From Candidatus Avelusimicrobium pullicaecorum (GTDB lineage: Bacteria > Elusimicrobiota > Elusimicrobia > Elusimicrobiales > Elusimicrobiaceae): a stretch of DNA of 42,490 nucleotides. Shown here piece after piece: positions 29,088 to 38,988 of the stretch. Location: the NCBI GenBank assembly GCA_944322825.1, contig CALUQD010000001.1, positions 80,015 to 122,504 on the forward strand. The letters run 5' to 3'. How positions within the stretch are numbered: position 1 is the stretch's first letter; every line of letters begins with the position of its first letter. The notes beneath the pieces are model-generated. The model did no database searches. It had not been told where the DNA came from and saw only the letters and a list, made by a program, of their open reading frames with translations. The position numbers and the translations under genes are program-made.

Positions 29088-29120
29088 AAAAAAGCCCCGG
29101 TTTTTCCAACCGGAGCTTTT
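29088..29120. terminator. Bidirectional terminator
   Basis: A6, CCGGTT (29097-29102) with AACCGG (29108-29113), flanking GC/GC pairs, then TTTT. It serves the convergent SpoIID and 29140 genes. Confidence 0.85.
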
Positions 29121-29139
29121 GCAATTCTATACACAATAA

Positions 29140-30939
29140 TTATTGGCCGGATAATTTGCGCTGAGCTTCCGCCTGGATTTGCTGGATCTGTTTTTGTTTT
29201 TCCGCGTCCGGCACGTCAGAAGCCATTACCTGGTTTACTTTTTCATACATTTCGCGCAGGACGGGGCGGGCGCGTTTTTCCAGCTCGGCTTTTTGTTCGG
29301 GCGAAGCTTGCTGGATGTTAGGATCCTTCATTATTTGCGCCAGCGAAGTATCCACCTGGCGGTTGACGCGGGCCTCCTGTAACTGAGGGTCTTTTTGCAA
29401 GGCGTCCAGTTCTTTATTTACGCCTTGGCGCAATTCCATAGTGGCTTGCTGCTTAGTTGTTTTGGAAGAATCCGGATCCTGCCAAATTTTCATATAATCG
29501 TCGTAGTATTTTTTATAAATCGCATCGATGCGGCGGGCGCCTTCTTCGCCATACACTTCACCAGCGGTTTTCAGTTTTTCATCGCGTTCTTGACGCAAGG
29601 ACTGGTCAATGGCGGCCAATTCTTTTTCGCCGGTGCGGTAACTGCGGCCCAGGATTTTCCCTTCTTCTTCGTCTTTTACGCGCTGTTCCACTTCCCGGCG
29701 CTCCACATTATCTTCCGCCGCAAACAACCCTTTGGTGGATTTTCCATTTTTGGTGATAATTTCTTCCAACGCTTTGCGGCGGGCGCGCTGGTTTTCCATT
29801 TGTTGGTTATAATACTCCTCGACGGGAAGCCCCTGCAAAGCCAGTTTCATATCTTTTTCGCGGGCGGCGTCAATCACTTGGTTGGCCTGGACGGCAATCT
29901 CGGGGCCGTACTGTTTGGCAAGCTCCTCTTTTAGGCGATTGTCTTTTTCTATCCGCTCCTGCTGGAATTTTTTAAAGCTGTTGTCGTTGGACATTTTTTG
30001 CAGTTTCTGTTCGTATTTCTGCGCCACTTGCTTGACTTTTTCGGCGATTTGCTGAGGATTCATATTGGGGTTATTGACGGCGGAAGCCATTTCATTTTGG
30101 AAGTCGTCCATCACCTGCCCCGCTTCCTGCGCGGCTTCCTGCCCGAAAGCGTTACCCATACTCTGCACGACTCCTGCTTTTTGCGAAGCCACCTGGTCCA
30201 GCACCGGGGCAAACGGACCGGCAGAGGCGGCCGCGGGCGAGGCATTGCGCTGGAGGTATTTTTCGATATTGGCGTCTTTCTTGCTCTTAGGCATTAAGGC
30301 TTTGGCCAAGGCGCGGTCGATGTTGCTGGAAAGGCCTTTTAATTGGTTTTGCAGCTGTTCCTGCTGTTTTCTGTTCATCCCCGTTAAAAAGGGCGAAAAA
30401 GCGCGCTCCCGCTCGGCTTCGACGGCTTCCTGCGCGGTGGGGCGGTACACGCCCGGCGCCTGCTGATAGGGGGCCGTTTCCGGCGCGGAGGAGGCGTAAC
30501 TCCCCGCACTGGAACCATATTGCCCGTAGTTGCCCGGGGAAAACCCTTTGGGGTGATAAGTATAATTGCCGGAGGGCAGTGAAACCCCGGCGGAAACGGA
30601 CGGCAAAGCCGCATAAGGCGGTTGTTGAAAATTATTCCCGGCGGAAAGCGTATAATCGCGCGGGTTGAGGGCCACCTCCGGACGGCGGGCATACCGCTGG
30701 ACGGCCATGGCGCGTTTTTCCTGTTTGGCTATCGGCGCGGCGGATGGAGCAGGAAGGCCCAGTATTTCCTCGTTTTTTAAATCTTCCAGCATACGGCGTT
30801 CGATGTGTTTTTCCTGCTGCAGCTGGGCTTGCTGGGCGGAGGAGGCATTGTAAGCCAGAATGCGCAGCAACGCCACCGCCACTGCCAACAATACCACCAC
30901 AAAAAGAGCAAATTTCAACAGCCGTTTATTTTTTTCCAT
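29140..30939 (-). CDS. Membrane-anchored helical protein of unknown function
   Basis: 599 aa. One N-terminal membrane anchor (about 10-28), then a Tyr/Gly/Ser/Pro-rich low-complexity segment (about 90-170), then a long, charged, Gln/Lys/Glu-rich helical region to the end, probably coiled coil. Within it recur segments built on [YF]G-x-E followed by helix: FGQEAAQEAGQVMD, YGPEIAVQANQVID and YGEEGARRIDAIYK. The same pattern occurs in the neighbouring lipoprotein. The start is 1 nt after the stop of that gene, so they are co-transcribed. No known family recognised. Most of the chain should lie outside the cytoplasm. Confidence 0.7.
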   Translation of the reverse strand: MEKNKRLLKFALFVVVLLAVAVALLRILAYNASSAQQAQLQQEKHIERRMLEDLKNEEILGLPAPSAAPIAKQEKRAMAVQRYARRPEVALNPRDYTLSAGNNFQQPPYAALPSVSAGVSLPSGNYTYHPKGFSPGNYGQYGSSAGSYASSAPETAPYQQAPGVYRPTAQEAVEAERERAFSPFLTGMNRKQQEQLQNQLKGLSSNIDRALAKALMPKSKKDANIEKYLQRNASPAAASAGPFAPVLDQVASQKAGVVQSMGNAFGQEAAQEAGQVMDDFQNEMASAVNNPNMNPQQIAEKVKQVAQKYEQKLQKMSNDNSFKKFQQERIEKDNRLKEELAKQYGPEIAVQANQVIDAAREKDMKLALQGLPVEEYYNQQMENQRARRKALEEIITKNGKSTKGLFAAEDNVERREVEQRVKDEEEGKILGRSYRTGEKELAAIDQSLRQERDEKLKTAGEVYGEEGARRIDAIYKKYYDDYMKIWQDPDSSKTTKQQATMELRQGVNKELDALQKDPQLQEARVNRQVDTSLAQIMKDPNIQQASPEQKAELEKRARPVLREMYEKVNQVMASDVPDAEKQKQIQQIQAEAQRKLSGQ

Positions 30940-30940
30940 A

Positions 30941-32000
30941 TTATTTTGCAGCCAGCGAAAGCGGCGTTCCGCGCACTTTGGCGGCGTTTATCTCCAGTTC
31001 TTCGTTCAGGCGGACTTGCAAAGCCGTCATTTCCTGGCGGTATTTTTCCCCCGCTTGGAATAAGGCTTCCTGCATTTGGCTCAACCGGGCCGGAGTACGA
31101 ACCAGCGCATCCGCCGCCTGTTTGTATGTTTCAAAAATATCCCGCGTCTGCAAGACTGCCTCTTTTCCGTACAATTTTTCGACTTGTTTTTCCACTTCCT
31201 GGTGGGCGGCTATCAGCTGCGCCCGCAAAGAAGCGGCCTGCTTGTCCGACAAGGAAACCACCGGGTCGCCGTATTTGGCCACCACGGCGGTGAAGGCGCT
31301 GTCTGCTTGTGTACCGACGCGGGCCAACTCGCGCTGCAAGCCGTCGCGGTCGTTGTCGGAAGAAAGCGCCAGGGCATAATCGCCGGCGGCTTTTTGCAAA
31401 ATAGGTTCCGCTTTTTGGGCGCATAAATCGCCGTAATCCCGGGAAATTTCCGAAAGCATCGCTTGGGCGGCCTGCTGCAAGGCCTGCGTGGACTGGCTGC
31501 GCTGTTCGGCATCCGGGGCCGTCCACGAAAGGGTTTTCTGCTGGGCGGCAAATGAAGCCAGTTTTTGGGAATAGGCCGTATTCATTTCCTCCAGCTTTTC
31601 CGCCGCGTCCTGCGGGGTGGGTGCGTTCAAAACGGCTTTAACCGCCTCGTCGCGAAATTGCGTCAGCAACGCGGATGTTTCGTCCGCCGCCTGGTGCGCG
31701 AAATGTTCCCGCGAAGCGGATTCCAGCGCGTTTTTCTGCGCAAAAATCAACCCCGAAAGGCGCGTATCCTGCGTGGGCGGCAGCAAGGCTTTTAGGGCCT
31801 TATCCGGCAAGAGGCCGTCCTGCACAAGCGGCTTGGCGCGCGACTGCGACAGACCGCGGAACTCCTGCGCTTTTTGCATATAGCGCGCCACATTGTCCGC
31901 ACGGGCGGAACGACGTTTTGGATGGACGTCCTCCTCTGGCGGAGTACAGGCGAACAAACCTATTCCTAACAAGAAAGCCAAAGCAAGCGGTGTTTTCATA
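30941..32000 (-). CDS. Helical lipoprotein of unknown function
   Basis: 353 aa from the ATG at 32000; a TTG upstream is in frame but lies across the -10 box. MKTPLALAFLLGIGLFAC is a lipoprotein signal with Cys18. The mature part is almost wholly helical and Ala/Gln/Glu-rich. It contains YGDLCAQKAEPILQK and YGKEAVLQTRDIFE, resembling segments of the protein encoded directly downstream. First gene of a two-gene unit. Possibly a partner of the membrane-anchored product (inference from pairing and shared motif). Confidence 0.72.
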
Positions 32001-32086: not shown

Positions 32087-32113
32087 AAAAAGCCCCGCCG
32101 AAGCGGGGCTTTT
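32087..32113 (-). terminator. Terminator of hisS-aspS
   Basis: GCCCCGC (32092-32098), loop CGAA, GCGGGGC (32103-32109), with A and T runs on both sides. It lies 4 nt past the aspS stop. Confidence 0.92.
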
Positions 32114-37236: not shown

Positions 37237-38988
37237 TTACCGGCTGCGCCGAACGGATTGGCGGGTGAGCGTTTTGGCCTGGGAAACTTTTGTTTTGCAC
37301 CGGGCCATAATATCCGCCGGTGTTTTGTAGCCTAATAGATTATCATTCTTGCTGATACCGCCCGTTTTGGCGCCAATGGAAACCAAATAATCGTATATTT
37401 CCTTGTTGCATAATAATGCGGCAAAGCCTAAAGGCGTCATCGGTTGGGCATTCTTTTGCGGAGCCACGCGGTATTCCAGCATCATCGCCAAACGCCCTTC
37501 CTTCCGGGCCAACGCCACCAGGTGTTTTAACATATCCATATTCTGCGTGCGCACCGCAATATGAAAGACGTTTCCTTTGGGCGAAGATTCATAAAACCGC
37601 GCCATATTGTCCACCAAATACGTCACTATGTCTTTATGGCCGTTTTCCACTGCTACTGCAAGCGGAGTTTCTCCGGCTTTATTCTTATCAAACACAACCG
37701 CTTTATTGGCCGCAATCACTTTTTTGGCCAGTTCCATATCGCCCGTCTGTGCGGCGGTAAAAATATCCGCATCCGTCACGGGTTTTTCCTGCGATTGCTG
37801 GCCCAGCTGCGGCAGTTCGCGTCCTTCTGCCTTGGCTTGGGCCATCAAGGCCGCATTGTCTTGCTCGATGACGCTGTTTTTCACTTGCGTCAAATCCATA
37901 TCAAACCATTTAAGCACCTGCCCCCGGTTATTCTTGCGCGCAGCCATATAAGGGATCAGGCCGTCCTTTGCGGGAATCGTCGGGTCTGCATCCGCCGCCA
38001 GCAAACGGCGCACTACTTCCTCGTACCCTTTGGCCGCTCCCCAGTACAGGGCCGTCTGACCCGCTTTGTTTTGCATATTTACGTCCAGCGGGGCTTGCAT
38101 CGTTTGCGGTTTTAAAAGCTCGCGGATGATTTCGGGGTGGTTGTAGCGGGCGGCGTAAATCAAAGCGGTATTGCCATCATTATTGGCCGCGTTAACGTCC
38201 GCCCGGTACGCCATTAAAGATTGTACGCTGGGCACGTCCCCCAGCGAGGCCGAAATAATAAGCGGCGTATTGCCTTTTTCGTTCTTTACATTCGGGTCTA
38301 TTCCGCCCTTTAGCATTGCCAAAACGCCCATCGGATTTTTTTGGGCGCTGGCGCGGAACAGATAGGCCGTATTAAGCCCTTCCCGCACACCGCTGGATAA
38401 AAACAGGTCAATAAATTCGGCCTGTTTCTTTTCCAACGCGATATACATCGGCGAGTGGTTATAATTATTTTTCGCGTTGATGTCCGCCCCGGAATAGACC
38501 AGCAGGCGGGTAATCTCCGGGAAGTTGCCGTACAGGCTCCGCAGCAGGGCGGTATCCTTGTTAAAAGAATTGGTTTTATTGACGTCCGCCCCGTTTAAAA
38601 TAAGCTGCTGGACGGCATCCAAATTGCCCATCGTTGCGGCGGCCACAATAAGCGGATCGCCTTTACTGTTGACGATATTCGGATTGTTCTTGCTTTGCTC
38701 GTTTAGGATGGTTAGAAAAGACTGCGTATCCTTCTTTTGCAAAGCGGCCGTAGCTTCATCGGCAATTTCGGTAGGAGTTTTGACGACGACGATTTTATCG
38801 TATTTATTATTTTTGCTGTTGGGCGTATAACCGCTTTTAAACGTAAACGCCAACATCAGCACAACAGGTATCGCCGCCACTACCGCCAGCGTAACCAGCG
38901 GTTTTTTGATAAGCAAGGAAATTGCTTCCGACAGTTTACTTTCCGCCGGAACATTCCCTTTCGTCGTGTTCTTGGGGTTCGGAAGCAT
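37237..38988 (-). CDS. Membrane-anchored ankyrin-repeat protein
   Basis: 583 aa. A short N-terminus and one membrane helix (about 30-50) are followed by two blocks of ankyrin repeats, about 100-355 (with GDPLIVAAATMGNLDAVQQL, NTPLIISASLGDVPSVQSL and NTALIYAARYNHPEIIREL as clear units) and about 405-545 (GETPLAVAVENGHKDIVTYL), separated by a charged Gln-rich stretch. Ankyrin repeats bind proteins; no enzyme domain is visible. Topology is unclear: a single anchor could place the repeats on either side. It is last in an operon after rnc, 11 nt gap, SD GGAGG. Confidence 0.85.
   Translation of the reverse strand: MLPNPKNTTKGNVPAESKLSEAISLLIKKPLVTLAVVAAIPVVLMLAFTFKSGYTPNSKNNKYDKIVVVKTPTEIADEATAALQKKDTQSFLTILNEQSKNNPNIVNSKGDPLIVAAATMGNLDAVQQLILNGADVNKTNSFNKDTALLRSLYGNFPEITRLLVYSGADINAKNNYNHSPMYIALEKKQAEFIDLFLSSGVREGLNTAYLFRASAQKNPMGVLAMLKGGIDPNVKNEKGNTPLIISASLGDVPSVQSLMAYRADVNAANNDGNTALIYAARYNHPEIIRELLKPQTMQAPLDVNMQNKAGQTALYWGAAKGYEEVVRRLLAADADPTIPAKDGLIPYMAARKNNRGQVLKWFDMDLTQVKNSVIEQDNAALMAQAKAEGRELPQLGQQSQEKPVTDADIFTAAQTGDMELAKKVIAANKAVVFDKNKAGETPLAVAVENGHKDIVTYLVDNMARFYESSPKGNVFHIAVRTQNMDMLKHLVALARKEGRLAMMLEYRVAPQKNAQPMTPLGFAALLCNKEIYDYLVSIGAKTGGISKNDNLLGYKTPADIMARCKTKVSQAKTLTRQSVRRSR

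Follow-up and report, generated by a model that had tools for sequence, protein, structure and literature searches.

Two adjacent genes of Candidatus Avelusimicrobium pullicaecorum, one for a lipoprotein (A) and one for a membrane-anchored protein (B), encode bodies that are tandem ~80-residue helical hairpins marked by [YF]G, three in A and four in B. Sequence comparison shows these repeats, establishes A and B as paralogues with differing anchors, and reveals a second lipoprotein/anchored pair, C/D, elsewhere in the same genome. The domain family, here called YG-hairpin, looks undescribed, and we tentatively read A and B as parts of a periplasmic scaffold or tether.

The A/B locus and its putative promoter

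The window, a 42,490-nucleotide stretch of contig CALUQD010000001.1, comes from a genome assembly of 1.52 Mb in 80 contigs with 87% completeness. The features of the A/B locus are:

29090-29120, minus strand: terminator-like hairpin of 13 pairs behind B, where B and the SpoIID-domain gene converge, from a consensus scan
29140-30939, minus strand: gene B, membrane-anchored protein, ATG start, translated as 599 aa
30941-31999, minus strand: gene A, lipoprotein, ATG start, TAA stop, translated as 352 aa
32006-32034, minus strand: promoter-like site ATGACA-17-TATAAT, 11/12 matches, putative in function
32092-32104, minus strand: terminator-like hairpin between aspS and A, from the consensus scan only

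The order on the minus strand is A then B, and the spacing of 1 nt given in an earlier note on this DNA is borne out, base 30940 being all that separates the two reading frames. Upstream of A lie aspS and, beyond it, hisS; the gene downstream of B, which runs towards it, encodes a SpoIID domain and TPRs. Elsewhere in the window (37237-38988) is a gene for a 583-aa ankyrin-repeat protein (Pfam Ank_2, E 1.4e-50).

The TATAAT of the promoter-like site stops 6 nt short of the start codon of A, and the message for A and B would therefore probably be leaderless, the promoter itself being putative. TATAAT lies 6-7 nt from the first-gene start in 14/15 members of the window's clade (the exception is L084), and a -10-like hexamer occurs 3-14 nt before the ATG of 23/45 first genes versus 3/24 B genes situated behind A. 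Deeper relatives with A have a TATAAT-like stretch further upstream, plus a GGAG-like stretch instead. The hairpin at 32092-32104 weakly suggests that A and B form their own transcription unit; it is a weak site because the consensus scan found 13 terminator-like sites in all where 8.7 were expected.

Two exported proteins built of in-register hairpins

Protein A begins MKTPLALAFLLGIGLFAC-TPPEE, with a lipobox (LFA-C18) whose Cys18 is invariant in all 17 aligned A proteins. B starts MEKNKR, a basic N-terminus followed by one hydrophobic anchor helix, and continues through a Pro/Gly/Ser/Tyr-rich linker (about residues 59-187, pLDDT mostly <50). Each protein has a short N-box, SARADNVARYMQKA in A (residues 31-44; the form matched to B in the profile comparison is RSARADNVARYMQKA) and KSKKDANIEKYL in B (residues 218-229). 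Over 41 aligned B rows K220, E226-K227-Y228 and G266 are invariant. The hairpin repeats of each protein are as follows:

A, residues 80-160: hairpin R1, YG lost
A, residues 161-245: hairpin R2, Y189-G190
A, residues 246-335: hairpin R3, Y277-G278
B, residues 238-322: hairpin R1, F265-G266
B, residues 323-404: hairpin R2, Y344-G345
B, residues 438-517: hairpin R3, Y463-G464
B, residues 518-599: hairpin R4, YG lost

That both proteins are mostly helical, as had been proposed from the letters alone, agrees with AlphaFold2 models in which A is ~81% helical (mean pLDDT 86.4) and B ~74% (mean pLDDT 77.0, the body past residue ~240 mostly >85). The predicted helix breaks precisely at the Gly in 4/5 YG/FG sites, namely G190 and G278 of A and G266 and G345 of B, and is unbroken at G464. 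The repeat unit of these models thus consists of a first helix interrupted at [YF]G and, after a turn, a second helix able to continue into the next repeat.

Alignments of 20 A proteins and 41 B proteins supplied seven repeat profiles of ~80 columns, which were compared in all 21 pairs. Six of the repeats have a YG/FG site (in A-R1, its remnant), which fell at offset 0 in 15/15 of their pairs, and these same-register pairs scored 23.9-67.1, all above the maximum of the 21 column-reversed controls (7.6-18.9) and of column-shuffled controls (6-14). The YG-less B-R4 exceeded every reversed control in 5/6 pairs, failing with A-R1 (13.6). Pairwise identity between repeats is low, about 3-27%. The suggestion of the earlier note that A and B have a module in common therefore stands, its [YF]G segments being true in-register repeats detectable by profile methods; additions to that note are A-R1, B-R4, KYGDP as a further site of A, and the colinearity of the two bodies.

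Profile-profile comparison aligned A columns 31-330 colinearly with B columns 226-528 (E 2.1e-19), with the N-boxes of the two proteins aligned just ahead of the first repeat, and in several genomes a search with the B profile picked up A as a more weakly matching relative of B. At the level of sequence profiles this shows A and B to be paralogues over most of A, and not merely carriers of a common module.

Searches for a known family

The earlier note knew of no described family with this layout, and its claim held in the libraries and literature searched, neither the profile libraries nor PDB sequences matching A or B to an unrelated known family. In hmmscan searches of Pfam, NCBIfam, PHROGs and PADLOC neither protein matched above a curated cut-off. 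The best Pfam match of A, PF25459 (E 7e-4; 19.8 bits against a cut-off of 27), was judged composition-driven and rejected, and a Pfam scan of the 41 B proteins gave scattered matches only, each in 1-3 members. Searches of PDB sequence profiles returned best E values of 0.046 (A) and 0.095 (B), both to unrelated entries, and Foldseek found nothing in the PDB at E<=0.001 for either model. The best VIA-align matches, for A at Z 8.4 (rmsd 25.6, 137 aligned) and for B at Z 11.0 with a designed helical bundle (rmsd 5.2, 127 aligned), may mean only a common helical-bundle arrangement, and the Foldseek and VIA-align lists consist of generic helical bundles. A full-text literature search on Elusimicrobiota envelopes, judged at the level of search entries, contained no entry naming these proteins.

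Distribution, gene order and evolution of A and B

In 61 related genomes searched with single sequences, A turned up in 19 and B in 30; a twentieth A match (G006) was not counted because it sits within the B gene of that genome. The B profile matched 53/294 genomes of the phylum, all in the window's genus, and 0/236 others, from which the A/B form would appear to occur in just one genus of the Elusimicrobiaceae, Avelusimicrobium. B is present in 45 loci, 42 of them assessable and three without aspS in the stretch. A lies directly before B in 24 loci, the spacing ranging from an overlap of 14 nt to a gap of 63 nt. B stands without A, directly behind aspS, in 18/42 assessable loci (aspS-B gap 45-412 nt). 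The check proposed earlier, whether the two genes are always adjacent in relatives, accordingly has a divided outcome: they are neighbours in 24/24 loci that hold both, but pairing is not obligate. Among the loci read that contain aspS, none has A away from the site behind that gene.

The presence of A changes at least 6 times on a tree of AspRS (41 ingroup rows, 23 with A and 18 without), in which just 9/42 inner branches have strong support. The nearest relative of the window by AspRS (L082, 97% identity) lacks A; a 260-nt gap at L082:5700-6010 retains the start-side promoter region of A, twice over, and no recognisable A body. In G005 (L041/L011), A is broken by in-frame stops (two TAA counted) and B is intact behind it. 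Members of the genus without a canonical B have variants at the same place, such as a 298-aa anchored protein at the B site (L136:3505-4398) and an anchored protein that combines an N-box with a single YG repeat (L132:885-2081); behind the latter, and truncated where the contig ends, is a protein with a signal peptide and three YG sites (L132:3-785). A few relatives have, between B and the SpoIID-domain gene, a secreted group with similar N- and C-terminal parts (L133:2518-5955, L134:1061-1969).

Estimates of dN were 0.20-0.26 for A (three relatives) and 0.14-0.20 for B (4 comparisons), with dS of 0.94-1.24 for A and 0.93-1.24 over all the A/B comparisons, and a dN of 0.02 for AspRS. Such substitution estimates show the A/B family to be fast-evolving, yet under purifying selection. 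Rate covariation between A and B over 15 loci (partial r 0.77) was not clearly above the control with the neighbouring SpoIID-domain gene (A-SpoIID 0.66, B-SpoIID 0.69).

A second pair and the wider hairpin family

A repeat profile built from 60 rows (A5) matched 62/294 genomes at E<=0.01, comprising 57/58 of the same genus and 5/236 others. Two of these five, both in the sister genus g13 and lipoproteins by their N-termini, were kept. The other three were dropped as chance matches: one in G041 of 32 residues, one in G116 that we take by its motif to resemble a Fic protein, and one in G150 that is presumably phage-derived. G030 gave weak matches that lack YG (E 0.007 and 0.034), and these were left out of the family. 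In the window's own genome A5 gave a match at G000:C16 (E 0.017). A search of 60 family genomes with a further profile, A6, matched 39, its many matches to signal-peptide ends not being counted. Two genes outside the window were recognised in this way:

G000:C3:5043-5672: gene C, lipoprotein with one repeat, found through A6 relatives and a reading of the locus
G000:C3:5695-6480: gene D, membrane-anchored protein with a Pro-rich linker and one repeat, found by an A5 match

The C/D pair (G000:C3:5043-6480, equivalent to L196:1044-2481) has the lipoprotein first and the anchored protein second, the same order as A/B, and adjoins tatD (by Pfam) on one side and, on the other, a gene that we take from its sequence to be rplT, for ribosomal protein L20. 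Profile comparisons linked C to D (E 2.1e-10), D to A5 (2.6e-6), C to A5 (2.2e-5) and A6 to A5 (7.8e-10), versus 0.078, 0.45, 0.22 and 0.019, respectively, in reversed controls. The D profile directly finds A (G092, 9e-5) and B (G028, 2.6e-4); against the whole A alignment it is weak (probability 2%), and where C or D was otherwise set against the profile of A or B in full, the probability was only 48-68% (three comparisons). These profile links show C/D to be a second lipoprotein/anchored pair with the same hairpin in the same genome, unlinked to A/B.

Because two rounds of iteration merged the C and D sets with each other and with A, both were rebuilt from single-sequence hits, nine dual-match ORFs being given to the higher-scoring query and three duplicate loci removed. 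C matches 39/61 genomes of the genus. D matches 31/61 at E<=0.001, 15 of them with E <1e-60; many of the remaining D-profile matches are C genes, found via common homology. C immediately precedes D in ten of 15 cases; another D gene lies where a contig starts, and four have no recognised C. C is present in 12/14 genomes in which B follows aspS and there is no A, compared with 11/19 genomes with A, and G020 and G034 have B with neither A nor C detected. The counts are only suggestive of A and C as interchangeable lipoprotein partners, being confounded by ancestry. One further genome, G113, has a divergent-subfamily A/B pair plus a C/D-like pair (L151:4342-7444, L245).

Sister-genus members G090 and G210 encode one-repeat lipoproteins near an S-adenosylmethionine synthetase gene (L198_3; L200_4 and L200_5 in tandem), and in large lipoproteins of the sister genus (L199_4, 872 aa; L201_6, 591 aa) one or two repeats can be recognised. 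The ~80-residue in-register repeat characterises the YG-hairpin proteins, the YG itself being lost in A-R1 and B-R4, and all appear from their N-termini to be exported, by lipobox, signal peptide or N-terminal anchor.

Hairpins fused to thioredoxin-like domains

Fifteen further matches of the C profile each contain an ORF, eleven with a C-x-x-C motif and four (L253, L254, L255, L257) without. The eleven were aligned with the C protein of G028:

L265:129-908, L266, L263, L264, L256, L258-L262, L267, L215:2221-3123: thioredoxin-like plus YG-type fusions, lipoproteins or signal-peptide-only proteins of the genus

The thioredoxin-like segment precedes the YG-type region in 12/12 of them. C-x-x-C and a Pro are also invariant in 12/12, the former by choice of rows. 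Pfam matches of single proteins fall just under the cut-off, the best being PF13098 (25.2 versus 27 bits), and occur in 4/12 members. Against the PDB the fusion profile matched best a thioredoxin disulphide isomerase (2ju5, E 0.0027) and then a thioltransferase (1kte, 0.01); a single-sequence search gave no such match, and C of the window's genome had no match in Pfam.

A scaffold or tether, and its alternatives

We tentatively favour, as a good possibility short of a probability, the reading in which A and B form a modular periplasmic scaffold or tether that displays homologous hairpins from different anchors. B would be anchored in the inner membrane, a flexible linker carrying its hairpin body out into the periplasm; the lipid of A would fix that protein, probably to the outer membrane; and the hairpin bodies would bind each other or their own copies and so connect the anchors. 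C/D would be a smaller version with one hairpin each, and in the thioredoxin fusions of relatives the hairpin would serve as a docking module. On this sequence evidence a complex spanning the periplasm, as the earlier note had ventured, is plausible. The scaffold or tether reading is supported by the in-register repeats, the colinearity of A and B, the helix breaks at Gly, adjacency in 24/24 loci, the second pair in the same order, purifying selection and the fusions. It is weakened by the loci with B alone, by G020 and G034, by an A-B distance correlation not clearly above that of a neighbour, and by the weak comparisons of C/D with whole A/B.

What is already known, and offers an analogy, is the joining of anchors across the periplasm through common modules. 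In the Lpt bridge, homologous beta-jellyroll modules are carried by inner-membrane-anchored, soluble and outer-membrane proteins (LptC, LptA and the N-domain of LptD). Hairpin proteins similarly exist in membrane-anchored (B, D) and lipidated (A, C) versions and as proteins that have just a signal peptide (L132:3-785, and thioredoxin fusions such as L265); unlike the jellyrolls, the A and B models are all-helical except for a few bridges of 1-2 residues. No lpt gene is among the 10 window genes scanned, and nothing observed points to lipid transport. The transducers TolA and TonB resemble B in having an N-terminal anchor, a linker and a periplasmic body, and TolA has a lipoprotein partner, Pal, as B has a lipoprotein gene beside it. 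The body of B is made of helical hairpins, unlike theirs, and A and B are paralogous to each other, as TolA and Pal are not. B has no Pfam match to TonB_C or TolA_C (the two matches listed for it, E 0.01 and 0.65, are to unrelated families), and no ExbBD/TolQR-type gene is among the 10 neighbouring genes scanned. A bolder and doubtful extension is that the envelope of the genus has a dedicated system built on one hairpin, set on inner-membrane anchors, lipoproteins and soluble thioredoxin-like carriers that would dock mutually, as a helical counterpart of the Lpt-type bridge; two independent lipoprotein/anchored pairs occur in the window's genome and several relatives.

Somewhat less likely than the scaffold, and still a real contender, is that A and B (and C and D) are tandem-duplication paralogues that work separately as homo-oligomeric envelope or surface proteins, their adjacency being a mere trace of duplication. 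B alone in 18/42 assessable loci, the two genomes without detected A and C, the six switches of A presence over the 41 ingroup rows of the AspRS tree, the 4/15 D genes without a recognised adjoining C (one more being at a contig edge) and a coevolution test not above its control are all as this would have it. The recurrence of the lipoprotein-then-anchored order in two unlinked pairs of one genome speaks against it, as does the failure to find A off the site behind aspS in loci that hold aspS.

The hairpin could instead be a periplasmic chaperone or redox-partner module, of the Spy/CpxP, Skp or thioredoxin-partner type, with A and B as anchored holdases or adaptors, which we think unlikely. 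Spy/CpxP and Skp are exported, all-helical, hairpin-containing proteins, as A and B are, and in the fusions the hairpin follows a thioredoxin-like domain with C-x-x-C and Pro in 12/12 (chosen for C-x-x-C) that weakly matches thioredoxin/glutaredoxin families. Unlike those chaperones, A and B have tandem repeats with a [YF]G break and are lipid- or membrane-anchored, and no profile of Spy/CpxP (LTXXQ), Skp or SurA matched either of them (Pfam and NCBIfam to E 1) or the 41 B proteins (Pfam to E 0.01). No thioredoxin match was obtained with A or B, or with C and D of the window's genome, and no such fold is among Foldseek matches at E<=0.001, a weak test for helical bundles.

Convergence of Ala/Gln/Glu-rich helices, for which the low repeat identity and biased composition might be cited, is very improbable and already refuted as far as profile statistics reach, given 15/15 pairs at offset 0 above a reversed maximum that preserves composition and helical periodicity, a colinear A-B match, and independent profiles that find one another.

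Significance

The envelopes of Elusimicrobiota look little studied. The YG-hairpins are short, high-confidence domains suited to structure and interaction work, and the thioredoxin fusions offer a handle on hairpin function. The presence of the hairpin in 57/58 sampled genomes of the genus, together with the two pairs, points to a lineage-specific envelope structure; A/B and C/D suggest a hitherto unrecognised modular structure between the two membranes of these cells.
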